Below, piece by piece: positions 1 to 11,981 of a DNA stretch of 12,911 bases. The stretch is from contig JAUWNZ010000011.1 of NCBI GenBank assembly GCA_030612385.1, positions 1 through 12,911 on the forward strand. The letters run 5' to 3'. This stretch comes from Pseudomonadota bacterium. GTDB taxonomy: Bacteria > Desulfobacterota > Syntrophia > Syntrophales > JADFWA01. How positions within the stretch are numbered: the first letter of the stretch is position 1; each line of letters starts with the position of its first letter. A model generated the notes under the pieces. It was not told where the DNA came from and ran no database searches. It saw nothing but the letters and a program-made list of their open reading frames with translations. The position numbers and the translations under genes were made by a program.

Positions 1-269
1 GAACGTATTTCACTTCCCTTTTCGCTTAAGTTATGCATGTCATGGGTGTCTAAATCGGAGAGGACATCTTTCATTTTGTCGACAATGCCTGCAGATTCTA
101 AAAGATATCTATAAGCATGGGCAGTTACGGCAAATCCATCAGGTATATTAACTCCTTTCCCTTGAAGAGCCCTTCTCATTTCGCCGAGGGAAGCGTTTTT
201 CCCTCCTACCTGTGGGATGTCATTTAATTCTATCTCATCAAACCATAGTACCAGCTCATCATTTTTCAT
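1..269 (-). CDS. ppsA: Phosphoenolpyruvate synthase, N-terminal part (runs off the left edge)
   Basis: Read on the complementary strand, this frame opens with an ATG at 269 and stays open to the window edge, giving the first 89 residues. The translation begins MKNDELVLWFDEI and contains VGGKNASLGEM at about residues 22-32, followed by VNIPDGFAVTAHAYRYLL. This is the hallmark N-terminus of the PEP synthase/pyruvate phosphate dikinase ATP-grasp (PPDK_N) domain. The conserved K and N of the GGKNASLGEM motif are present. PEP synthase makes phosphoenolpyruvate from pyruvate and ATP in the cytoplasm, for gluconeogenesis. A GGAGG ribosome site lies just upstream (276-280 on the + strand). The gene is divergent from radC and is probably chromosomal backbone flanking the accessory locus. 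A PPDK assignment is less likely, because PPDK usually starts differently, but the central and C-terminal domains are outside the window. Confidence 0.88.
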   Translation of the reverse strand, partial: MKNDELVLWFDEIELNDIPQVGGKNASLGEMRRALQGKGVNIPDGFAVTAHAYRYLLESAGIVDKMKDVLSDLDTHDMHNLSEKGSEIR

Positions 270-275
270 TCAAGA

Positions 276-280
276 CCTCC
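276..280 (-). promoter_or_regulatory. Ribosome binding site of ppsA
   Basis: On the complementary strand GGAGG sits six bases ahead of the ATG at 269. The match is strong and the spacing good, which fixes the start of the PEP synthase gene. Confidence 0.7.
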
Positions 281-337
281 AGGAGATTGTATTTCTGTAA
301 AATTTTCAACCTTATCTGTGATCCATGACAGCAGGAT

Positions 338-366
338 TTTTTATCATTTTTGTGTCTTGAAGTCAA
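338..366 (-). promoter_or_regulatory. Candidate sigma-70 type promoter for ppsA
   Basis: On the complementary strand TTGACT (361-366) is followed, after exactly 17 bases, by TAAAAA (338-343). These match the -35 consensus at five of six positions and the -10 consensus at four of six. Transcription from here would leave a leader of about 60 bases before the ppsA ATG at 269. The call rests on consensus matching only. No operator or riboswitch was recognised in the leader. Confidence 0.4.
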
Positions 367-480
367 TCAGAAAATCTTTGTTGGCACCCCACCTCTTTCC
401 TGAAATCATTCCTCCTAAAAACGCCTCAAGGACATTTTCTGTATTTCACTTTGAATCTTGCTCCTTCGTATTGATATTCC

Positions 481-509
481 TTGCATTATTCGTTTTTCAG
501 GTTTACAAA
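481..509 (+). promoter_or_regulatory. Weak candidate promoter for radC and the R-M operon
   Basis: TTGCAT (481-486) and TACAAA (504-509) are separated by 17 bases. They lie about 45 bases ahead of the radC start. The -35 element is poor, at three of six consensus positions, while the -10 element is acceptable. It is offered because an operon of this length needs a promoter in this gap and no better pair was seen on the + strand. Confidence 0.22.
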
Positions 510-552
510 TAGCATCGGAAATGCGAATGGGCGCTCAACTCGGAACGGCTTA

Positions 553-1278
553 ATGGAGAAAAAAGACGATAATAAATTGCACATAAAGAACTGGCCTGAA
601 GGCGATCGGCCACGGGAGATGCTGTTGAAAAAAGGCCCGGAGGCCTTGAGTGATGCGGCGCTGCTCGCTATCCTTTTGAGAACAGGCATGAAGGGGAAGA
701 ATGCCATAGCCCTTGCCAGAGAAATGATAGGCAGGTTTGGCGGGCTCAATGGGTTGATGATGGCAACACAGGATGATCTGTTGAGTGTCAAGGGAATAGG
801 AAAGGCGAAAGTAGCACAGATACTTGCCGCCATGGAAATTGTAAAGCGGCAACTGCGCCAGCCCCTTGAAAAGATTAACATTATAAAAAATCCCCTCCAC
901 CTGTTTGAATATCTGAAGGTATCAATGGCCAATCTCTCCCGCGAGGAATTCCGGCTCCTCCATCTCAACAGATCAAAACACCTGATTGCGGAAGAGGTGC
1001 TGTTCCGTGGAACAGTAGATGAATCAGCGGTTTATACCCGTGAAGTTGTTGAATCCGCCTTGAGGAAAAAGGCATCCGCTTTGATCCTGGCCCATAACCA
1101 TCCTACCGGCTTGCCTGAGGCAAGTGAAGAAGATATCAAATTGACTGAGTCTTTGGTAAAGGCATGTTGGACCGTTGATATCCCTATAATCGACCACATT
1201 ATCATTGGCAGGGGTGGCTTTTTGAGCATGAAGCGTGATTACCCCGAGATTTTTGAAGGAGACAATGAAGTCGCATGA
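553..1278 (+). CDS. radC: RadC family protein (JAB/MPN domain, UPF0758)
   Basis: This gene encodes 241 residues, close to the usual RadC length of about 220-240. The ATG at 553 was chosen because the family starts near the [18 protein letters not shown] block (residues 11-28). An in-frame upstream extension to 481 adds 24 unlike residues, and no start here has a strong ribosome site. A helix-hairpin-helix segment ([14 protein letters not shown]) lies at about 78-91. The JAMM-type metal site is visible as HNHPTG at 181-186 followed by D194, the HxHx(10)D pattern. The true function of RadC is unsettled: it was once assigned to DNA repair, and the fold resembles zinc-dependent MPN+ proteases or deubiquitinases. 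RadC genes are often found on mobile and defence islands. Its TGA overlaps the hsdM ATG as ATGA, implying translational coupling with the R-M genes. Confidence 0.93.
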
Positions 1279-3623
1279 AGAAGCTCACACTCCCCCAGCT
1301 TGAACACCACCTGTTTGCCGCGGCGGATATCCTGCGCGGAAAGATGGATGCCTCGGAGTTCAAGGAATACATCTTCGGCATGCTCTTTTTGAAACGGTGC
1401 TCGGATGTCTTTGATGAAGAATATGAAGGAATCATAAAGGCCAACCTTGCCAGGGGTCGGACAAAAGAGGAGGCAATCAAGCGGGCCGAGGATCCGGACA
1501 GATATGCAAAATCCTTCTTTGTCCCAGAGGCGGCAAGGTGGGGAAAGCTTAAACACACGCATCGCAATATAGGAGATGAGCTGAACATAGCATTATCAGC
1601 GCTTGAGCGTGACAACCGGAGCCTTGAGGGCGTCTTAGGGCATATTGATTTCAACAGAAAGGCCGGGAAGACAAAAATACCTGACCGGAAACTTCGCGAT
1701 CTCGTCAATCATTTCAACAAATATCGCCTCAGGAATACCGACTTTGAATTTCCTGATCTTATCGGCGCAGCCTACGAGTACCTTATAGGGGAGTTTGCGG
1801 ATTCTGCAGGCAAAAAAGGCGGTGAGTTTTATACCCCAAGAGACGTTGTTCGTTTGATGGTGCGCATACTCAAACCGCAGGAAGGCATGCGCGTATATGA
1901 TCCCTGTGTCGGCTCAGGAGGCATGTTGATCCACTCCAAACAGTATGTGGAAGAACATGGAGGCAACTACTTTAACCTGAGCCTTTACGGCCAGGATAAC
2001 AACGGCGGCGTCTGGTCCATGTGCAAGATGAACATGATCCTTCACGGCATTGCGGGCGCGGATATCCAGAACGATGACGTCCTGACCTCGCCCCTTCATC
2101 TGGACGGCGGCGAGCTGATGCGGTTTGACCGGGTAATCACCAATCCTCCCTTCAGCCAGAACTATTCAAAAGACGGCATGAAATTTACCGAAAGGTTCAG
2201 GTACGGTTTCTGCCCTGAGTCCGGCAAAAAGGGCGATCTCATGTTCCTGCAGCACATGCTGGCAGTCCTGAGGACCAACGGCATGATGGCAACGGTAATG
2301 CCCCATGGGGTACTGTTCCGAGGCGGCGCTGAAAAAGAGATTCGCAAGGGCATTATCGAAGATGACTTGCTGGAGGCGGTGATCGGATTTCCGCCCAATC
2401 TCTTTTACGGCACCGGCATCCCCGCATGTGTGCTGGTGTGTCGGGCAAAAGGCGCCAAGCCTGACAAGCGCAAAGATAAAATCCTTTTTATTAATGGAGA
2501 TGCGGAATTTTATGCAGGCCGGGCACAGAACTATTTGAGGCCCGAACATATCGAAAAGATCGCATCCGCCTTTGACGCCTTTGAAGATATCCCAGGATAT
2601 GCGGCCGTTGTTACGAGAGAAGAACTCAAGTCAAACGACTGGAACCTGAACATCCGGCGTTATGCCGATAATGCCCCTCCGCCCGAATCCCAGGATGTCC
2701 GCGCTCACCTGCTCGGCGGAATTCCCAAGGTTGAAGTCGAAGCAAAAAAGGATCTCCTCGATGCTCACGGCCTTAAGGTCTCTACCATATTCGTGGAACG
2801 TGACGCGGACTACTATGATTTTGATTCTACGCTGGCCGAACGGGGTGACATCAAGAAGAGGGTCGAGGCCGGAGATGGCATACGGAAGCAGGAGGCAGGA
2901 ATAAAAACCACCTTTGATCAATGGTGGGAAAAGCACAAACAATCGTTAATCGACCTGCCCGATACCAAAAACCTTATGGAAGTTCGCACCGATCTTTTGG
3001 AAGCCTTTGTGTCGGATATCACGCCGGTGGGATTGCTTGACCGCTTTAAAGTCGCGGGCGTTATTGCCACATGGTGGAATGAAAATAAATTTGATTTCAA
3101 AACCCTAATTGCCCAAGGTTTTGGGGGACTGGTGGACGGCTGGGTGGATACCAGAGAAGCCGCAATGGAAGAGGCTAAGGGCAATCACTTTGACCTGGCC
3201 GATGATCCGCTGGTAACCAGACTGATCCCCGATTATCTGGAAGAACTGGAACAGGCCCGGCAGGATATTGTACGCTTGGAACAGGAAAAAGAACTCAATT
3301 CTTATGTGAAAATAACCAACCAGTTAAAAGAAGCCAGAAAGCAGTTCAAGGAACTTCAGAAAAAATTCATCAAACGCCTGCACGAAGCCCGCGACGCCCT
3401 TTCCGATGATGATTGCAGTGACCTGGTTCTCGATATCCTCAATGAAAAACTCGCCGGACATCTAAAAAGCTATGTGACCGCCCACAGGCAGGAAGTCATT
3501 GCCGTGGTGGAGAACTGGTGGGATAAGTATCGTGTGACGTTGAGGGATATTGAGGGGGAGCGGAAAACAGCGGCCATGAAGTTGGCGACATTTATAGGTG
3601 AAATTGGATATAATAATGCATGA
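1275..3623 (+). CDS. hsdM: Type I R-M system DNA methyltransferase subunit (HsdM), long form
   Basis: This gene encodes 782 residues. It would be the modification subunit, transferring methyl from S-adenosylmethionine to adenine N6 within an M2S complex. An HsdM N-terminal helical domain occupies roughly residues 5-150. GEFYTP is at 183-188, the SAM-binding motif I DPCVGSGG at 209-216, and the catalytic motif IV NPPF at 290-293. These residues are intact, so the enzyme looks active. Compared with the roughly 500-residue classical HsdM (EcoKI type), there is a C-terminal extension of about 280 residues. It includes a long charged helical, probably coiled-coil stretch around 655-705 (rich in E, K, Q and L), as seen in the 'long' HsdM class. 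The start at 1275 overlaps the radC stop by 4 bp, and the 3' end overlaps hsdS by 8 bp. Confidence 0.96.
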
Positions 3624-4887
3624 ATTCAAAAAGTCCACGCTCGAAGAAGTCCTTTCTGTACTAGAATCTGGTAGTCGACCTTCAGGTGGGGTCGATACAG
3701 AATCGGGTACAATCCCGAGCCTTGGCGGAGAGAACATAAGTCAAGATGGACGCATGTATTACGGCGTTATAAAAAAAGTTCATGACGGTTTTTATCGAAA
3801 TATGCCGCGGGGTCATCTTTTTCCATATGATGTCTTAATCAACAAAGATGGTGCTCAAACAGGGAAAGTCGCAATATACAAAGGCGACTTTCCCTATGCG
3901 GCAATTAATGAACATCTCTTTTTAATGCGAGGGAAAGCTAATGTAATAGAACAAAGATTCCTTTTTTATTATCTTTTTTTCGAAGCTACTCAGCAACAGA
4001 TAATCAAAATGATTACAGGTTCAGCACAACCCGGAATCAACTCAAGTTTCATTAAACATATAATGATCAATGTACCTCCAACTGAATTACAACGCCGCAT
4101 CGCCGAAATCCTTAATACCATAGACGAGGCCATTCAAAAAACCGAAGCGCTTATTTCAAAACTCAAAGCCATGAAGCAGGGCCTGCTCCACGACCTGCTC
4201 ACCTGCGGGCTGGATAAAAACGGCAAGCTCCGCGACCTCAAAGCCCATCCGGAGCAGTTTAAGAATTCGGCGTTGGGGAGGATACCGAAAGGGTGGCGAA
4301 TTACTAATCTTGCCAAATTAGTAATTCGCGCTGAATACGGTATTTCAGTCTCTTTAGAAGACGACAATGGGATACCTGTCCTAAGGATGAATAATTTGTT
4401 TGCAGGCGAAGTTGACTTGTCGGAGCTGAAGTATTCAAAAAGCAGAGAAGCCAGCAATCTGCTTCTAAACCCAAGAGATGTTCTTTTCAATAGGACAAAC
4501 AGTATGGACCATGTGGGAAGAACTGCTATTTGGAGAGGACAATGGAAAAAAGTATCTTTTGCCTCGTATCTCGTTCGTATAGTTCCAGATTATTCTAAAT
4601 TGATTCCCGAATATCTGAATTTATGGCTTAATTCTCAATCAACACAGATCCTAATTCGAAAATATGCGACTCCAAGTGTACATCAAGTTAATATCAACCC
4701 CACGAATCTTCAAAAGGCAGATATTACTTTACCTCAAAGCGTTGAGGAACAGTACACTATGGTAGATGCTGCGGATTCCCACGACGCCCGCATCCACACC
4801 GAAGAACAATACCGCGACAAACTCAAACTCCAGAAAAAGGGCCTCATGCATGACCTTTTAACCGGCAAAGTCAGGGTTAGGGTATAG
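3616..4887 (+). CDS. hsdS: Type I R-M specificity subunit (HsdS), two target-recognition domains
   Basis: This gene encodes 423 residues from the ATG at 3616. That start overlaps hsdM by 8 bp and has GGAT five bases ahead; a GTG at 3598 would add six residues. The layout is TRD1 (about 1-155), a central helical spacer with [20 protein letters not shown] (about 160-180) leading into [16 protein letters not shown]2 starting after GRIPKGW (about 222), and a second distal helix ending in [14 protein letters not shown]. The paired LLHDLL and LMHDLL repeats are typical of HsdS. Each TRD reads one half of a bipartite target, and the helices set the spacing and dock two HsdM subunits. The two TRDs look more A/T-rich than the conserved helices, which fits domain swapping. 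The recognition sequence cannot be predicted from the protein by eye. Confidence 0.95.
4296..4329 (+). repeat. Perfect 13-bp inverted repeat inside hsdS
   Basis: The left arm GCGAATTACTAAT (4296-4308) and right arm ATTAGTAATTCGC (4317-4329) are exact reverse complements around an 8-base spacer. They sit at the start of TRD2 and encode [11 protein letters not shown]. Because of the symmetry, the opposite strand read through the same bases also encodes nearly the same peptide ([11 protein letters not shown]). The structure could form a hairpin in DNA or mRNA. Its role, if any, is unknown. Confidence 0.85.
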
Positions 4888-4999
4888 GTGAAAAGCCTTA
4901 TGACAAGAATTTAGAATGAAATTTGCAAAAAAAGGGAGGCCTCTTAATTTTAAAGATTCAGACAAGGAATGCCACCGGTGAAAAACGTTAAAAAAAGAG

Positions 5000-5028
5000 G
5001 TGCAATTAGTCGCGGGAATGTTTATAAT
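5000..5028 (+). promoter_or_regulatory. Candidate promoter of the three-gene cassette
   Basis: A perfect TATAAT lies at 5023-5028, with transcription expected to begin near 5035, shortly before the ribosome site of the first cassette gene. The -35 region 17 bases upstream (5000-5005, GTGCAA) is a poor match, so activity may be weak or need an activator. Its place in the only sizeable gap between hsdS and the cassette suggests that the cassette carries its own promoter. Confidence 0.33.
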
Positions 5029-5048
5029 TCACTATGATTTATTATGTC

Positions 5049-5053
5049 AGGAG
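5049..5053 (+). promoter_or_regulatory. Ribosome binding site deciding the start of the first cassette gene
   Basis: AGGAG lies eight bases before the ATG at 5062. An in-frame ATG at 5044 overlaps this site and has no ribosome site of its own, so 5062 is taken as the start. Confidence 0.65.
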
Positions 5054-5061
5054 TATTCAAC

Positions 5062-5880
5062 ATGGAAAAAGTTTCAAAGGACTTGCCAGATTATGAAAGC
5101 CCACCTGTTATTGAGGTGGTCTGCGGAATTCTTTTTAAATCTATCGACACACTGCTTGCGCCGCACCTTGGCTTGCTGTGGGAGAAATACAAATCAGAAT
5201 ATCCTGCCTGTCGAGAGGTCGCCCCTTTAGCTCCCGTGATTGAGCGTTTTGATGAAACTCCTCAAGTTAACCTTCAACTTGCTGATGTGCCCCCGTTGCC
5301 ACGAATATGGTTTATCCACAAGAATGATAACGGAATCATTCAGGTGCAGCGTGATCGATTCTTGCACAACTGGAAAAAAGTTCGACCAGATGACGAATAT
5401 CCACGGTATCCGCAAGTGATCGAACTGTTTAAAAACCGTTTATCTCGGTTTGAATCATTCCTGAGTGAAAATGACCTTGGGGTTATTGAACCCCAGCAGT
5501 ATGAAATGACCTACATAAACCATATCCCGCAAGGGGATGGTTGGACGACCCTGAATGAAATAGGCAAAGTGTTTCCCGATTTCTCGCTCCGAGCTACTGG
5601 ACGCCGATTTTTGCCGGAGCCTGAAGGGATTAATTGGCGAACGAGTTTTGTTCTGCCTGATGATACAGGTAGATTGCACATGACAATCCGACACGGAAAA
5701 CTTCCCGGTTCAGGCCATCCCGTCCTATTACTGGATATGACCGTCCGTGGCATTGGAAAAGATAAGTCATTTGAGGGAATGACGGCGTGGTTTGATATTG
5801 CCCGTGAATGGATCGTGCGTGGATTCGCTGACCTGACAGGGAAGGAGGTGCAAAAGGACATATGGAGGAGAAAGAAATAG
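5062..5880 (+). CDS. TIGR04255-like family protein, first gene of accessory cassette
   Basis: This gene encodes 272 residues. It starts MEKVSKDLPDYESPPVIEVV, and the proline-rich PPVIEVVCGILF opening followed by about 250 residues matches what I know of the sporadically distributed TIGR04255 family, which has no established biochemical function. I recognise it from the N-terminal pattern and length, not from catalytic residues. There is no signal peptide or membrane segment, so it is probably cytoplasmic. Other visible blocks are RIWFIHKNDNGIIQVQRDRFLHNW (around residues 88-111) and a C-terminal AWFDIAREWIVRGFADLT segment. The last 19 bases overlap the next gene, so the two are probably co-translated. 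Its position between hsdS and hsdR suggests a defence-linked or other accessory role, which is inference. Confidence 0.68.
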   Translation: MEKVSKDLPDYESPPVIEVVCGILFKSIDTLLAPHLGLLWEKYKSEYPACREVAPLAPVIERFDETPQVNLQLADVPPLPRIWFIHKNDNGIIQVQRDRFLHNWKKVRPDDEYPRYPQVIELFKNRLSRFESFLSENDLGVIEPQQYEMTYINHIPQGDGWTTLNEIGKVFPDFSLRATGRRFLPEPEGINWRTSFVLPDDTGRLHMTIRHGKLPGSGHPVLLLDMTVRGIGKDKSFEGMTAWFDIAREWIVRGFADLTGKEVQKDIWRRKK

Positions 5881-6404
5881 TAAAGTCTATTGGCAGGACC
5901 TTACAGTATCCGTTTTTTCAAATATGCCAGAATGCTGCTAACACAACTGCTACAACAATGGAAACAGGTATAGTCGAAACAGAGGATATTGCAGAAGAAA
6001 TGCCATTGCAAAAAAGGCAGCCTGTAGACGTCACTGTCTTTGTAGGTCAAGCATCCGTGAGTGACAAGCCTAATATGACCTATCTAAGTGAAGATAAAAA
6101 GGACTTCTGGCGCCCGGTCATTTCTCAGGGATTGATGTATGCTTCAGGGAGACAGCATTATATTTATGAAGTGCTTGAAGAATATCTCGGCTTCCCAGGC
6201 GAAGCTGTGGGGAGTGTGTCTCCATGGCCAGGGCTTTGGCGACAAAGCAATCCTCAGCCAACAGACTTAAGAGGTGTGTTTCCCACTAATTATCCACGAA
6301 AGGTTCTATTCACAAAGCCGCTGACTTTTAAAACCTCCGAGTTGCCGCGATGGAAACCTAAAAGTATAATTGGCTTGCGAACGTTTGAGGAAGAAGATGC
6401 CTGA
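5862..6404 (+). CDS. Unknown protein, second gene of accessory cassette
   Basis: This gene encodes 180 residues that I do not recognise. The ATG at 5862 lies inside the 3' end of the preceding gene and is preceded by a strong AAGGAGGTG at about 5841-5849, supporting real translation despite the 19-bp overlap. The first 50 residues are Thr/Glu-rich and probably flexible (NAANTTATTMETG). The rest is richer in aromatic residues and proline, with blocks such as FWRPVISQGLMYASGRQHYIY (about 87-107) and PWPGLWRQSNPQPTDLRGVF. No signal peptide, membrane helix, nucleotide-binding or metal-binding motif is visible. The stop overlaps the start of the next gene by 8 bp. Such tight packing usually means that the three products act together, possibly in a complex. 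Confidence 0.75.
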   Translation: MEEKEIVKSIGRTLQYPFFQICQNAANTTATTMETGIVETEDIAEEMPLQKRQPVDVTVFVGQASVSDKPNMTYLSEDKKDFWRPVISQGLMYASGRQHYIYEVLEEYLGFPGEAVGSVSPWPGLWRQSNPQPTDLRGVFPTNYPRKVLFTKPLTFKTSELPRWKPKSIIGLRTFEEEDA

Positions 6405-6984
6405 GACATGGTACGAGATCATAAGCTCCGGAACACCTCTCACGCAAGGCGATCTGATCTTTGACTGTCCACTACTTGCCTGGCAGAATAATACTTTGAG
6501 ACTGGAAGGTGCAGATGAATCAGAAGTTCTAATGGGTGCGACGAGCGTCATTAAAGCTGACGTTGTAGTCATGACTCAGGCCTGCGACCTCGAACATGAA
6601 AAAGTTGGAAACGTGATTCTCTGTCAACATGTTTCTCTTGATGACCATCGTGAAATTTGGGGAGACAACATGCGGAGAGCTGGTCAAAACCTTAGTAAAA
6701 AAGCTTGGAATAGTCATTGCGATGACATTTGTCATGGGTATATGTGGAACCTTACGATGCTAAATGATTGCCGGATTGACGGATCAAGCCTGGGTATCCG
6801 CATTGTCTTTTTTAATGAGGTTTACACTGTGCCACGTTCTTTCCTTGAATCTCTGTTAAGGCAGCGGCGAGATTCCAGATTTCGTCTCCTCCCACCTTAT
6901 AGGGAGCACCTGTCACAATCGTTTGCTCGGTTTTTTATGCGCGTCGGCCTTCCTGTCCCTATCGAAAAAAAATGGCAAATTTAA
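6397..6984 (+). CDS. Unknown protein with conserved-looking TQACDLE motif, third gene of accessory cassette
   Basis: This gene encodes 195 residues. The ATG at 6397 was chosen because it has GAGG six bases upstream; an in-frame TTG at 6370 adds nine residues but lacks a site. The opening SGTPLTQGDLIFDCPLLAW is followed by VVVMTQACDLEHEK (about 57-70). This is a buried strand ending in a Cys-Asp-Leu-Glu turn that I associate with an uncharacterised family ('sQsCDle'). Other cysteines and histidines follow in NSHCDDICHGY. The C-terminus, LLPPYREHLSQSFARFFMRVGLP, looks like a conserved helix-rich signature. A metal-binding role for the Cys/His cluster is possible but unproven. No transmembrane segment is seen. 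The gene ends the cassette; after it the sequence changes to decayed coding DNA. Confidence 0.75.
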   Translation: MPETWYEIISSGTPLTQGDLIFDCPLLAWQNNTLRLEGADESEVLMGATSVIKADVVVMTQACDLEHEKVGNVILCQHVSLDDHREIWGDNMRRAGQNLSKKAWNSHCDDICHGYMWNLTMLNDCRIDGSSLGIRIVFFNEVYTVPRSFLESLLRQRRDSRFRLLPPYREHLSQSFARFFMRVGLPVPIEKKWQI

Positions 6985-7013: not shown

Positions 7014-7262
7014 GCTTACCTTATCGTTTCGAAAACGACCGCACAAGTTACCGCACAAGTCTTGAATTTTTGCCAGGAGCCGCGCAAGTCCTCAGAAATT
7101 ATGGAATTGATTGGTCTTAAACACTGGAAAACCTTCCAGACAAACTATCTAAACCCTCTTCTCCAACAAGGGTTACTTGCTATGACCATTCCTGAAAAAC
7201 CAACGAGCAGTAAACAGCGGTATATAACGACCGAAGCAGGGAAAGAGGCCCTAAAAACATGA
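7014..7262 (+). pseudogene. Remnant of C-terminal winged-helix domain (AAA_4/AlbA_2 or Fic-type protein)
   Basis: The frame from 7014 to the TGA at 7260-7262 reads TTAQVTAQV, then a winged-helix-like stretch: EIMELIGLKHWKTFQTNYLNP, then LLQQGLLAMTIPEKPTSSKQRYITTEAGKEAL. The T-x-Q-V repeat followed by LGLKxRxxFxxxYLxPLLxxGLxxMTxPdKPxSxxQkY is typical of the extreme C-terminus of AlbA_2/AAA_4 ATP-binding proteins and of some Fic proteins. Both kinds often sit between the genes of type I R-M loci. Everything upstream of this domain is missing: an in-frame TAA stands at 7011-7013, and the preceding DNA belongs to the cassette. A short protein could still be made from TTG 7062 or an internal ATG at 7101, but no good ribosome site supports it, so a truncated relic is favoured. 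Confidence 0.68.
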
Positions 7263-7311
7263 ACAAATTTTTAAAGGCTTTTCTCTAATGGCACAGGAAA
7301 GAAGGAACCTT

Positions 7312-9408
7312 ATGGCACAATCACCTGATGAAAAAACCTATGTGGAGATTCCCTTTATTGAGCAGTTAAAGGCGATGAGCTGGGGACATATCGAGGGTGA
7401 TATTGATGTGCCGTATCTTACCGAACGGGAGAGCTTCCGCGATGTCTTGCTGGCTGATAGATTGCGTAAAGTGGTTAAGAGAATCAATATCGATGACAAC
7501 GGGAATCCCTGGCTGGATGATGATCGTGTCAGTCAGGTGGTCAGCGCATTAGAGAGAATCAGCGCGCCAAAATTGATGGAGGCAAATAAGAAAGCCTTTG
7601 ATCTCATCGTGCATGGCGTCGAGGTGGAAGGCGATCCTGCCCTGCATGGCGGCAAAGAAAAGACCGTTGCCATAATTGACTTTGATCATCCTGAGAAGAA
7701 TGATTTTCTTGTAATCAATCAGTTCAGGGTGGATGTTCCGGGCGGGAAGACCTTCATTTCTCCGGACATTGTGCTCTTTGTCAACGGAATTCCCCTTGTA
7801 GTTGTCGAATGTAAAAGCCCCAAAATATCCAATCCCATGGAAGAAGGTATAAACCAGCTCCTGAGATATTCCAACCAGCGACCAGAGGTGGAAGAGGACG
7901 AGGGATGTGAACGGCTCTTTTATTACAATCAATTCCTGGTCAGCACCTTCCGGCAGGAAGCACGGGCTGCCACGGTAGGAGCCGGCTATGAACATTACAT
8001 GGAATGGAAGGATACAAGCCCCGTTCCCATGAGTGAGTTTGCAAAGAGTCTTGGAAAAGAGAAGTTAAACAGCCAGGAAATTCTGATTGCAGGCATGCTG
8101 CGAAAGGAACATCTCCTTGATATTATAAGAAACTTTACCCTTTTCGATCAGATTCAGGGGCGGCAGGTAAAGCTTATGGGCAGGTATCAGCAGTTTCGGG
8201 CTGTGTACAAGGCCATTTACCGCCTCAGAACGGGCAAGACAAGAAAAGAGCATGGCGATGCTGATCAGCGCGGCGGCATTATATGGCATACACAAGGGTC
8301 CGGCAAAAGCCTTACCATGGTTTTCATGGTCCGCAAGATGCGGACCCTCACGGACTTAAAGAGCTTCAAAGTCGTAGTTGTGACCGACAGGATAAACCTT
8401 GAAGGGCAGTTGAAAGGCACCGCCGGGTTGACTGGTGAAACCGTTTATCGGGCTAACAATAAGAACGATCTTGCCAGGCTTATGCAGGAGGCCAGTTCCA
8501 ATATTGTTTTTACAATGGTTCAGAAATACCTGGATCAGGAACTCGTTACGGAGGATTATGAAATTCCGGGGCGCCGGATGCTGAAAGCGGCGGCCCCTTC
8601 CGGCGAAAAGAAAATGGGTCACAAACTCCCCGCAAAACCGATCCTGTTCCCCATCTGGAATCATTCTGACAGGATATTGGTTCTGGTGGATGAAGCCCAC
8701 CGGTCTCACACCAATATGATGCACGCAAATATCATGCGGTCTCTGCCAAATTGCGCCATGATCGGATTTACCGGAACACCCATTATCGTTGCGGGGCGCG
8801 CCAGAAGGACTCATGAGATTTTTGGCGATTATATTGACCAGTACACCATTGAGCAGTCACAAAAAGATGGTTCCACCGTCAAAATACTCTATGAGGGCCG
8901 CAAGGCGGAAGCCAGGGTCGAAGGCGGAAGGAGCCTGGATCAGTTCTTCGATGATATGTTCAGATCACGCAGCGAAGAAGAAAGAGAGGCCATACGGCGC
9001 AAGTATGGAACCGTGGCCAATATTTTAGAGGCAAAGGACCTCATAGCCGCAAAGGCAGAGGATATGCTGCTTCACTATGCCGCAAATATCCTGCCCAATG
9101 GATTTAAGGCCCAGGTTGTAGCGGTGAGCCGGCGGGCCGCCATACGGTATTATGAAGCCTTTGGAAAAGCAAAAACCAAACTCTTGAGACGCACTGAACT
9201 GCTTGATCCGAATCTCTTTGATCTGCCGGAAGACGAACAGGAAAATCTGAATGAAGAGACACGGTTTCTGATTATTGCCGCAAAAAATAGAGATATCATA
9301 AAGGAGCTTGAGTTTGCGGCCATTATTTCAGGAGATCACAATGACCCGCCTTCCTATAAGGAACATATAAGGAACATACGGATAAGGCGAAACAGGAAAT
9401 CCTTATAG
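7312..9408 (+). CDS. hsdR: Type I restriction endonuclease subunit HsdR, 5' fragment (frameshifted)
   Basis: HsdR translocates DNA with ATP and cleaves it when the HsdM/HsdS complex finds an unmethylated site. This frame gives about 698 residues from the ATG at 7312, which has AAGGA five bases upstream; an in-frame ATG at 7288 is an alternative start. The PD-(D/E)xK nuclease is visible as PDIVLFVNGIPLVVVECKS, with ECK at about 166-168. The helicase motor shows Walker A TQGSGKS (about 327-333), Walker B DEAH (about 460-463), motif III GFTGTP (about 485-490), and the motif IV region AQVVAVSRRAAIRYY. The protein ends at a TAG (9406-9408) after an unrelated tail (RNIRIRRNRKSL), caused by the 11-bp duplication at 9355-9376. 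It lacks motor motifs V and VI and the C-terminal domain, so restriction should be inactive. Confidence 0.93.
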   Translation: MAQSPDEKTYVEIPFIEQLKAMSWGHIEGDIDVPYLTERESFRDVLLADRLRKVVKRINIDDNGNPWLDDDRVSQVVSALERISAPKLMEANKKAFDLIVHGVEVEGDPALHGGKEKTVAIIDFDHPEKNDFLVINQFRVDVPGGKTFISPDIVLFVNGIPLVVVECKSPKISNPMEEGINQLLRYSNQRPEVEEDEGCERLFYYNQFLVSTFRQEARAATVGAGYEHYMEWKDTSPVPMSEFAKSLGKEKLNSQEILIAGMLRKEHLLDIIRNFTLFDQIQGRQVKLMGRYQQFRAVYKAIYRLRTGKTRKEHGDADQRGGIIWHTQGSGKSLTMVFMVRKMRTLTDLKSFKVVVVTDRINLEGQLKGTAGLTGETVYRANNKNDLARLMQEASSNIVFTMVQKYLDQELVTEDYEIPGRRMLKAAAPSGEKKMGHKLPAKPILFPIWNHSDRILVLVDEAHRSHTNMMHANIMRSLPNCAMIGFTGTPIIVAGRARRTHEIFGDYIDQYTIEQSQKDGSTVKILYEGRKAEARVEGGRSLDQFFDDMFRSRSEEEREAIRRKYGTVANILEAKDLIAAKAEDMLLHYAANILPNGFKAQVVAVSRRAAIRYYEAFGKAKTKLLRRTELLDPNLFDLPEDEQENLNEETRFLIIAAKNRDIIKELEFAAIISGDHNDPPSYKEHIRNIRIRRNRKSL
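9355..9376 (+). repeat. Exact 11-bp tandem duplication that frameshifts hsdR
   Basis: TATAAGGAACA occurs at 9355-9365 and again directly at 9366-9376. Eleven extra bases shift the reading frame. Removing one copy gives PPSYKEHTDKAKQEI and joins the 5' fragment to the downstream frame, which continues FKKLLDKDKLAVIIVKSMLLVGFDAP as expected for HsdR. The length from 7288 to 10607 minus 11 is divisible by three, giving 1,102 residues (1,094 from the ATG at 7312). This is a direct observation; whether it is fixed, variable or an assembly artefact is unknown. Confidence 0.95.
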
Positions 9409-10607
9409 GGAAGGATGGAAGATTTAAAAAGCTGCTGGACAAGGATAAACTTGCCGTCATTATCGTGAAAAGCATGCTGTTAGTTGGATTTGATGCGCCG
9501 GTGGAACAGGTCATGTATCTTGACCGCTTTATGCAGGGGCATGAGCTGCTGCAGGCCATTGCCAGGGTCAACAGGCGTTACACGGGAAAAACCCGCGGGC
9601 TGGTTGTGGACTATTTTGGCGTTGGTGATCGTCTGACTGAGGCGCTTGCCATGTATTCACAGGATGATATCAAGGGCGCTCTGATCAATATCAAGGATGA
9701 ACTGCCCAAATTGGACGACCGGCATAGACGGGTTATGAACCTGTTTAGCGAAAGGGAGATTGCCGATATCTCGGATGTCGATGCATGTGTTGATGTGTTA
9801 AGAGACGTCGAGCTGAGGGCGGAATTCATCAACAAGTTTGCGGAATTTGCCGAGAGCATGGATATCATATTGCCGCGCCCTGAGGCTCTGCCGTATATCT
9901 ATGATTTAAAGCTCTTTGGATTTATCAACAAAGCCACGGCGAACCGGTATCGGGACTCACAGCTCAATATCACAGGGGTGGGCAGCAAAGTAAAGCAGTT
10001 GATTGATGAGCACATTATTGCACAGGGAGTTGATCCAAAGGTCCCTCCCATATCTATTCTGGATAAAAACTTTGAGAAGGAAGTGGGCGCGATCAAATCT
10101 AAGAAGACACAGGCCCTGGAAATGGAGCATGCCGCCAGGTTTCATATTGAAAAACATTACAACGAAGACCCCGCTTTTTACAAAAAGCTCAGTGAAAGGT
10201 TGAAAGATATTCTCGATGCCTTTCGTGATAACTGGGAAGCCCTGGCAAAAGAACTTGAGAAATTCACTCAGGAGACAAAAAAGGGCCGGAAAGAAGATCA
10301 GACAGGTCTGGATCCAAAGATACAGGCGCCGTTTCTGGGAATCCTGATTGATGAATTCGGGAGAAAACCGGAAGAACGGAAAATGAAAGATTTCTGTGAA
10401 GCCGTTGTTGATATTGTGGACCATATCCGGCAGGAGATCAAGGTGGTCGACTTCTGGCGAAACAGGCATGCGCAAAACATATTGAGAACATGGATTATCA
10501 ACGAAGTAGATGACCGCAATCTTGTTCCTTTCGATAAACAGGGGAAGCTTGCGGATCGTTTTGTGGAACTGGCTAAAGCCCTGCATTTGAGGCTGATCAG
10601 ATCATGA
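9360..10607 (+). CDS. hsdR: Type I restriction endonuclease subunit HsdR, 3' fragment (frameshifted)
   Basis: This is the continuation of HsdR in another frame, open from 9360 just after an in-frame TAA. It carries motif V (LLVGFDAPVEQVMYLDRF) and motif VI (LLQAIARVNRRYTGK) of the superfamily 2 helicase motor, then the helical region and C-terminal domain that dock HsdR to HsdM. The end reads DFWRNRHAQNILRTWIINEV and then LVPFDKQGKLADRFVELAKAL, typical of HsdR C-termini. As an independent gene it would have to start at GTG 9465 or ATG 9474, inside the motor domain and with no convincing ribosome site, so it is unlikely to make a functional protein alone. Its TGA overlaps the metallopeptidase start as ATGA, so loss of translation here may also reduce the next gene's expression. 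Confidence 0.92.
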   Translation, partial: GTYKEHTDKAKQEILIGKDGRFKKLLDKDKLAVIIVKSMLLVGFDAPVEQVMYLDRFMQGHELLQAIARVNRRYTGKTRGLVVDYFGVGDRLTEALAMYSQDDIKGALINIKDELPKLDDRHRRVMNLFSEREIADISDVDACVDVLRDVELRAEFINKFAEFAESMDIILPRPEALPYIYDLKLFGFINKATANRYRDSQLNITGVGSKVKQLIDEHIIAQGVDPKVPPISILDKNFEKEVGAIKSKKTQALEMEHAARFHIEKHYNEDPAFYKKLSERLKDILDAFRDNWEALAKELEKFTQETKKGRKEDQTGLDPKIQAPFLGILIDEFGRKPEERKMKDFCEAVVDIVDHIRQEIKVVDFWRNRHAQNILRTWIINEVDDRNLVPFDKQGKLADRFVELAKALHLRLIRS

Positions 10608-11323
10608 TGACAACGGGGGAAATGGACGGTCTTGAATATAGGCTGAAGAGATCTGACCGGAAATCTATGGGGATTTCCATCGAGAGAAATGGGGCCGTTA
10701 TGGTGAAAATCCCCCACCAGGCGGGACTGAATGACATTGAGAAGTTTATTTCTGAAAAGAAGGTATGGATTTATCAAAAACTGGCTAAAAAGAAAGCCCT
10801 GAACAGGGAAAGACCAAAAAGAGAATTCGTTAATGGTCAGGGATTCTTATATCTCGGCAAAAGCTACCGCCTGAGATTTATAGATGATGCCGGAACTGGA
10901 TCGGGAAAGCCGCCGAAAGCAGCGCCGCTACGTTTATGGCATGGCTATTTTGAGCTTGCGGAAAGCGAAAAGGCCAATGCGCGTGAGCGCTTCATAGCCT
11001 GGTACAAAAAGCAGATCAAAAGGCGGCTTAAAGAACGCATACCGCGTTATGATAAACGGATCGGGGTTACGGTAAAAGACATCAGGATATTGGACCTCGG
11101 CCATCGCTGGGCATCGTGTGGCCGAAACGGAGTTATCAATTTCAACTGGCGTTCGGTCATGGCTCCCATCTGGGTCTTTGATTATATTCTGGTTCATGAA
11201 ATGGTTCACCTTATTGAGCGGGCTCATTCGGACAGATTTAGGAACCTGGTATCCCGCATTATGCCGGATTACGAAGAGCATGAGCTCTGGCTTAGTGAAA
11301 ACGGGGCAGAGTTAGATTTATAG
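10604..11323 (+). CDS. YgjP/DUF45-type zinc metallopeptidase, coupled to hsdR
   Basis: This gene encodes 239 residues. The zinc site is visible as HEMVH at 198-202 with a further His at 208 (RAHSDRF), the HExxHx(5)H arrangement of the YgjP-like (DUF45, WLM/SprT-related) metallopeptidases. The catalytic Glu199 is present. The block GHRWASCGRNGVINFNW (about 166-182) corresponds to the RWGSC...INLNW signature of this family. An N-terminal half with KKVWIYQKLAKKKAL fits the family's helix, and the length is normal. It has no signal peptide, so it acts in the cytoplasm. The substrate is unknown. The ATG overlaps the hsdR stop by 4 bp, and homologues are commonly found directly after hsdR. Control of HsdR or of other complex members by proteolysis is an attractive but unproven idea. 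Confidence 0.88.
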   Translation: MMTTGEMDGLEYRLKRSDRKSMGISIERNGAVMVKIPHQAGLNDIEKFISEKKVWIYQKLAKKKALNRERPKREFVNGQGFLYLGKSYRLRFIDDAGTGSGKPPKAAPLRLWHGYFELAESEKANARERFIAWYKKQIKRRLKERIPRYDKRIGVTVKDIRILDLGHRWASCGRNGVINFNWRSVMAPIWVFDYILVHEMVHLIERAHSDRFRNLVSRIMPDYEEHELWLSENGAELDL

Positions 11324-11445: not shown

Positions 11446-11469
11446 CCTTGAATCCTTGAATCCTCGAAC
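11446..11469 (+). repeat. Three tandem 8-bp units (CCTTGAAT type)
   Basis: CCTTGAAT at 11446-11453 and 11454-11461 is followed by the variant CCTCGAAC at 11462-11469. Related sequence continues into CCTTTGCA, and a possible degenerate copy (ACTCGACA) precedes. This is a short intergenic tandem array ahead of the integrase-like gene. Similar octamers occur, to my knowledge, in intergenic DNA of environmental deltaproteobacterial genomes. Confidence 0.75.
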
Positions 11470-11531
11470 CCTTTGCATCAACTAATAATCGGGAGAAGAA
11501 CCTTATATAATAACCGGTGAAAGGTGAAATC

Positions 11532-11981
11532 ATGGAATCATATGAACAATACGAAAAAGAGTGCAAGAAAACAAGGAAAGAAAACGAATCCTTGCTGTCT
11601 GCTTTTGAAACATGGCTTTCAAGTAAAAAGCTTACCGGGAAAACTGTTGATCGCCACCTGTCTAATGTAGATTTTTATATCAATGATTTTTTGTTGTATG
11701 AAGATTCCATTAAAGCAGCCGACGGAATGGATGAAATCGGAATGTTCCTCGGGTATTGGTTCATAAGGAAAGCGATGTGGTCGAATAAAGCCGCAATCAA
11801 AGAAAATGCCGCCAGTCTGAAAAAATTCTACCAGTATTTGTATGAGGATGGAAAGATAACCAAAGATTCGCTGCAAGATATGAAAGAAAGAATAAAAGAA
11901 GATATGTCTGAATGGCTTGCAACCATGGAGCGATATGACGATCCGAACGTTGAAAGCATGGAAGAAGTATGGGATATTTGA
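11532..11981 (+). CDS. Integrase core-binding (SAM-like) domain protein without catalytic domain
   Basis: This gene encodes 149 residues from the ATG at 11532, which has AGGTG about five bases upstream; a GTG at 11517 would add five residues. The all-helical sequence LLSAFETWLSSKKLTGKTVDRHLSNVDFYINDFLLYE (about 22-58), then LKKFYQYLYEDGKI near 97-110, resembles the N-terminal SAM-like core-binding domain of tyrosine recombinases (the 'ltgkTvdrhlsnv..' pattern). The catalytic Arg-His-Arg-Tyr domain is absent, and the gene ends cleanly, so this is a small stand-alone family and not an obvious truncation. It probably binds DNA or another protein, which is inference. It is separated from the R-M operon by 208 bp and may have its own promoter. 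Confidence 0.68.
   Translation: MESYEQYEKECKKTRKENESLLSAFETWLSSKKLTGKTVDRHLSNVDFYINDFLLYEDSIKAADGMDEIGMFLGYWFIRKAMWSNKAAIKENAASLKKFYQYLYEDGKITKDSLQDMKERIKEDMSEWLATMERYDDPNVESMEEVWDI

Follow-up and report, generated by a model that had tools for sequence, protein, structure and literature searches.

The window, that is the entire stretch of 12,911 nucleotides that was analysed, carries a type I restriction-modification locus in which hsdM, hsdS and hsdR were found together by Pfam and PADLOC (Table 1). The open reading frames of the first two genes are whole, which upholds the original prediction that the methylation and specificity subunits are intact. In length HsdM agrees with the six relatives nearest to it, which measure 780-782 aa (a form of about 877 aa is common too among more distant ones), its expected domains are present and its NCBIfam score of 232.2 lies just below the cut-off of 242.75. 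HsdS is a protein of 429 aa with two Methylase_S stretches and matches specificity subunits over its full length. The restriction gene hsdR gives an NCBIfam match above the cut-off and is divided between two reading frames.

Table 1. Features of the type I restriction-modification locus and its surroundings in the window.
Feature	Coordinates	Strand	Remarks
radC-like gene	481..1278	+	directly 5' of hsdM; order same in related locus L016
hsdM, intact ORF	1275..3623	+	782 aa; N6_Mtase and HsdM_N domains
hsdS, intact ORF	3616..4887	+	listed from GTG 3598; ATG 3616 overlaps the end of hsdM
intervening genes, hsdS to hsdR	5044..6984	+	TIGR04255 family protein 5044-5880; unknown ORFs 5862-6404 and 6370-6984
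hsdR 5' piece	7312..9408	+	HSDR_N nuclease domain and motor motifs up to IV
exact frameshifting tandem duplication	9355..9378	+	11-bp unit TATAAGGAACA, 2.2 copies; from repeat analysis and the single copy of relatives
hsdR 3' piece, other frame	9363..10607	+	motifs V and VI, C-terminal domain
YgjP-like metallopeptidase gene	10604..11323	+	directly 3' of hsdR

The surroundings of hsdR were compared with those in 17 related loci, which were obtained from one scan of genome contigs, in which records nearly identical to the window's own genome may have been omitted. A ygjP gene lies 3' of hsdR in 16 of these 17 loci and the remaining one ends within hsdR, while the full order radC, hsdM, hsdS, hsdR and ygjP was found in a single related locus, L016. 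L004, L005 and L014 each include approximately 5.8 kb of DNA 5' of hsdR in which no relative of hsdM or hsdS was found, and these three loci argue against a gene order that is fixed across relatives. Upstream of hsdR, L004 contains a STAND NTPase gene together with one of the Schlafen/AlbA type (210-5849), L005 a kinase/ORC-CDC6-like gene and a nucleotidyltransferase (358-5844) and L014 a large NOV_C/sacsin-like gene (101-4309). The space ahead of hsdR, which differs by locus (positions 5044-6984 in the window), resembles a cargo slot whose contents are perhaps defence genes. Positions 7026-7262 of the window hold what is left of the 3' portion of a Schlafen-AlbA/HATPase/Fic-like-C gene, which is present as a whole (513 aa) just 5' of hsdR at L004:4308-5849 and L007:933-2474. 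Tandem repeats with units of 11 and 12 bp, in which CAAGTC or CAAGTT forms the anchor, occur at L004:5574-5648, L007:2232-2272, L014:10428-10465 and window positions 7038-7060; they vary in copy number between loci and lie within the Schlafen-type gene in L004 and L007. On the other side of hsdR, CCTTGAAT is repeated 3.5 times (85%) at 11446-11473, between the ygjP-like gene and the next open reading frame, and a 154-aa frame at 11517-11981 shows a weak tyrosine recombinase match (TIGR02225, far under its cut-off).

The two pieces of hsdR appear collinear with the full-length HsdR of relatives, which measures about 1094 aa and is up to 92% identical among the listed proteins. The upstream frame, listed from position 7288 with the start of relatives mapping to 7312, aligns to residues 1-685 of the HsdR protein P0001 (92% identity) and is free of stops until the TAG at 9406-9408. 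The other frame extends from about position 9363 as far as 10607 and aligns, likewise free of stops, to residues 681-1094 (95% identity). The nuclease domain and the motifs GSGKS, DEAH, TGTP and VAVSRR are contained in the 5' piece and VGFDAP and QAIARVNR in the 3' piece. The original prediction had placed the split between motor motifs IV and V; the break indeed sits between VAVSRR and VGFDAP, which we take to be these two motifs. In an alignment of P0001 to the solved type I HsdR chain 4beb, the site falls within the second aligned segment, ahead of VGFDAP. HsdR is accordingly not encoded as one uninterrupted protein in the window, the split lying at 9355-9378. That the gene works nevertheless, either as two polypeptides or through programmed frameshifting, can hardly be credited. 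Possible starts for the 3' frame exist at GTG 9465, the first one listed, and at ATG 9474, and the reading frame of hsdR also breaks about 18 codons downstream in L009 and L017. However, inspection by eye revealed neither a ribosome site before these two starts nor a clear slippery heptamer, the break cuts through the second motor domain, and L017 is interrupted by many other stops, while a large deletion affects L009. Programmed frameshifting at the break was rejected as a candidate for want of a convincing signal by eye.

The frame is broken by a short repeat. Positions 9355-9378 read TATAAGGAACATATAAGGAACATA, a tandem array with a period of 11, 2.2 copies and 100% match, so that the span of 9355-9376 originally given for an exact direct tandem copy was correct and the array itself ends at 9378. 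The match run measures 13, which allows the phase of the unit to slide by two bases, and the 13-mer TATAAGGAACATA has two forward matches and no reverse match in the genome, both of them at the hsdR repeat. Among 120 first-order Markov resamplings of the window, examined for units of 7-30, two yielded a perfect tandem repeat whose unit reached 10 or more and none a match run of at least 13. No other frameshifting tandem unit of at least 7 was found in the hsdR stretches of the 17 related loci, where the sole other perfect tandem repeat of this kind is an in-frame 9-bp unit in L011. Because of this rarity in the relatives' hsdR stretches and the outcome of the resampling, the repeat is a mutation and did not arise by chance from base composition. 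Mutations of this type are not exotic, as tandem repeats of such size are not very rare in comparable DNA: repeats with a unit of at least 10 numbered two per 68,825 bases sampled from this assembly (both within one 111-aa open reading frame), 11 per 166,180 bases of the 17 related loci and two per 65,901 bases of the loci L020-L038. The one-copy form has a 2-bp TA match flanking the unit, of which slippage could make use. Folding offers no structural reason for a hotspot, since arms at approximately 9350-9413 around the repeat do not fold more strongly than shuffled sequences (z -0.94; 38 of 200 shuffles equal it), and a hairpin-driven hotspot was rejected on this ground.

Single copies prevail among the relatives. 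All 13 of the 17 related loci that cover the stretch contain one copy; L015 and L018 are deleted at the site and L011 and L013 start downstream of it. Approximately 11 of the 13 are independent, because L008 does not differ from L010 over 7,066 bases and the identity between L002 and L003 is 99.88%. The portion of hsdR that is present shows no break in 10 of the 13, and the breaks in L009, L012 and L017 lie in other parts of the gene. At the protein level, the site is spanned by 114 of 120 listed proteins; no insertion is seen in the 46 with more than 69% identity, and three with 56-61% identity have unlike insertions of 4-8 residues. Judged from this distribution, the single copy is the ancestral state. 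Relatives that all share two copies together with downstream decay, the pattern that the original prediction had named as evidence against itself, were not seen: the copy is single throughout the 13 covering loci and the window's hsdR shows no downstream decay.

Selection on the two pieces was assessed from changes restricted to the window, defined as codons at which it differs while L002, L004 and L005 agree, an unrooted count that is blind to a short recent phase. The upstream piece contains N 10 and S 39 such changes over 670 codons (N/S 0.26) and the downstream piece N 9 and S 45 over 408 codons (N/S 0.20). Applied to L002, L004 and L005, this count gave 0.58, 0.40 and 0.46 upstream and 0.22, 0.25 and 0.44 downstream. 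Relaxed selection was not seen in either piece, as N/S does not exceed that of the intact relatives, and neither downstream decay nor a second lesion was seen in the window's hsdR. Because its N/S is not above that of relatives, hsdR has been under selection for most of the window's branch and the break, given the blindness of the count to a short recent phase, is recent, an artefact or reversible. To judge from these substitutions, it looks recent.

Two rival explanations bear on this result. The first holds that the gene is a fixed pseudogene, with restriction permanently lost and a solitary type I methyltransferase left behind. Loss is common in this HsdR family, given that hsdR is broken in other ways in five of the 17 loci (L009, L012, L015, L017 and L018), yet neither piece has a second lesion or signs of relaxed selection, so that a permanent loss, if it occurred, is young; this explanation is considered quite improbable. 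The second, which is more doubtful still, is that the duplication is an artefact of assembly or consensus and that the organism really has one copy and an intact hsdR. The assembly is of draft quality, with 1.61 Mb in 324 contigs and a completeness of 68.65%, both pieces are otherwise under purifying selection and the relatives have a single copy. On the other hand, an exact invented copy of 11 bp is an unusual assembly error, and the two repeats with a unit of at least 10 in the sampled bases of the assembly do not amount to a flood of false duplications.

A putative second event at the same place came from a search with the 3' piece. P0241 is a C-terminal HsdR fragment of 427 aa from one metagenome contig of 5,249 bp, with five member sequences. 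Its residues 16-427 (412 residues) are 99.0% identical to L002 and 98.8% identical to L003, both of which contain one copy with the frame open across the site. The first 14 residues, MTLLHIRNIRTRRN, correspond to an off-frame reading of L002 at the site (L002:2001) and, after one further residue, KEHTDKAK follows in frame. Outside L002 and L003, the best score of this 15-residue head was 9 of 15 among 166,068 forward-strand start points in the 17 loci. The simplest reading, for which the protein is the sole source, would be an independent frame-breaking tandem duplication of about 28 bp that starts at ATAAGG, where the unit of the window can start as well. No N-terminal partner of P0241 is found among the 120 listed HsdR proteins, and a search of viral contigs with P0241 gave no match. 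If this reading is right, the site has two copies in the window, one in the 13 loci and a different duplication with the same start in P0241, and two lineages broke hsdR by different duplications, one of them with 99%-identical intact sisters. The support that a slip-prone site thereby gains is due to the implied second duplication in another lineage, and the place looks like a recurrent slippage site.

Other breaks were observed in the same part of the protein. L009:1600-1690 and L017:630-760 both seem one base short at the same hsdR codon (approximately P0001 residue 703), about 18 codons 3' of the window's repeat. Internal deletions that end at approximately residues 701-707 are present in P0253, L015:2078-3831, P0340, P0344 and P0345, and P0245, P0248 and P0249 are C-terminal fragments that start at residues 718 and 777 and may stem from broken genes or from cut contigs. 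Six of 25 breakpoints fall within residues 676-706, a number reached by 191 of 20,000 uniform placements, and this clustering is treated as weak since the breakpoint list was made by hand after inspection and rows were left out of it. The list omits L017 with its many stops, P0069, P0091 and P0105 (short odd tails), P0335, P0340, P0344 and P0345 as well as fragments that possibly end at a contig edge or a start set by the gene caller, for example P0244, P0245, P0248, P0249 and P0251.

The distribution of hsdR is patchy. Across 155 genomes of the window's class, the top matches that P0001 has outside the window's own genome are 47% and 41% identical, and hsdR genes with 78-88% identity occur in other groups of the phylum and with up to 91% in loci of unstated kinship. 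Orthologues at E <= 1e-100 were obtained from 9 of the 155 class genomes and 21 of 395 genomes in a phylum sample (own genome counted in both), from two of 17 genomes in the order of G514 (E <= 1e-120) and from 16 of 85 and 7 of 46 genomes in two further orders (E <= 1e-60). The match rows of these added orthologues, judged without realignment of the new loci, contained no second tandem duplication. A plasmid search returned 17 records that cover at most 8% of the query. The patchiness suggests that hsdR was horizontally transferred; a knock-out after arrival fits this pattern without being proven by it.

The account that we consider probable is that slippage at a slip-prone place caused a recent loss of restriction, with methylation kept and reversion possible. 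Replication-type slippage would have generated the exact 11-bp copy in hsdR and the resulting frameshift would prevent active HsdR from being made, while HsdM and HsdS, predicted from their intact reading frames to be active, would still methylate. The cell then likely methylates and does not restrict. Loss of one copy could follow at a low rate, so that restriction would be off yet potentially revertible, and the independent hit in the lineage of L002 and P0241, as read from the protein, would mark the place as a mutational hotspot or as a site where the off state is tolerated. The genes upstream of hsdR in three relatives make conservation of the locus weaker, which slightly lowers confidence in this account.

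A true phase switch would go beyond this account: one copy would mean on and two copies off, with the slip-prone stretch kept by selection and populations mixed. In its favour are the frame-breaking duplications that share a start and seem to have arisen independently in two lineages, one of which has 99%-identical single-copy sisters, the measurable reversion of two-copy repeats in penA (9.3e-7 and 3.6e-5; PMC4169377) and the on/off variation of hsdR that was proposed in Mycoplasma agalactiae (PMC9465063). Against it, there are just two copies, the relatives are without a repeat tract, all 13 covering loci being single-copy, and ordinary mutation together with weak selection on hsdR accounts for the data equally well. 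With 2.2 copies, the repeat is not the multi-copy tract of a repeat-tract phase-variable gene and is far from the classical switch of that kind. A strict on/off switch is possible and, as an explanation of this locus, unlikely. The same low standing is given to the wider proposal that a slippage hotspot lies around the SYKEHTDK codons in the HsdR motor domain of this family and that lineages of the phylum use frame-breaking duplications there as a reversible restriction switch, with all cells methylating and only part of the population cutting. If a true hotspot exists, restriction in these bacteria may be bet-hedged by a two-copy repeat, the simplest possible means, which scans for long repeat tracts would miss, and draft genomes in an R-minus M-plus state may often be in a temporary one. 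A single stretch of about 60 bp in read sets offers a concrete check.

Returning to the probable account, the locus clearly belongs to a known class, in which a short, potentially reversible duplication inactivates a gene, as an exact intragenic tandem duplication breaks the frame of hsdR. Reports of a tandem duplication that switches hsdR were not recognised in the literature searched. Repeat tracts in type I systems are cited for 7.9% of hsdS, 2% of hsdM and 4.3% of hsdR genes (in PMC9577141). Slippage in a type I gene is the mechanism common to them and the window, which differs by its 2.2 copies and by relatives without a tract. In Mycoplasma agalactiae, the account in PMC9465063 describes an hsdR shortened by 2 nt inserted into a poly(A) tract, with methylation retained and on/off variation proposed. 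Here too hsdR alone is broken, and methylation, retained there, is predicted in the window; however, that case concerns a homopolymer tract in another phylum and not the single duplication of an 11-bp unit. In penA of Burkholderia thailandensis, two-copy duplications appear de novo whose units measure 9-60 bp, and two that were tested reverted at the values given above, the higher one with a 60-bp unit (PMC4169377). They share the de novo two-copy duplication with the window, whereas the change in penA is in frame and alters the substrate range and that in hsdR shifts the frame. Reversible inactivation by spontaneous intragenic tandem duplication is described for the pneumococcal genes cap3A, cap8E and tts (Waite 2001 and 2003, cited in PMC4243769 and PMC2995930). 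Those duplications resemble the one in the window in lying in tandem inside an open reading frame, in having a single-copy ancestor and in the potential loss of a copy; phase variation is reported for the pneumococcal capsule genes, whereas the window concerns a restriction subunit known from its sequence alone.
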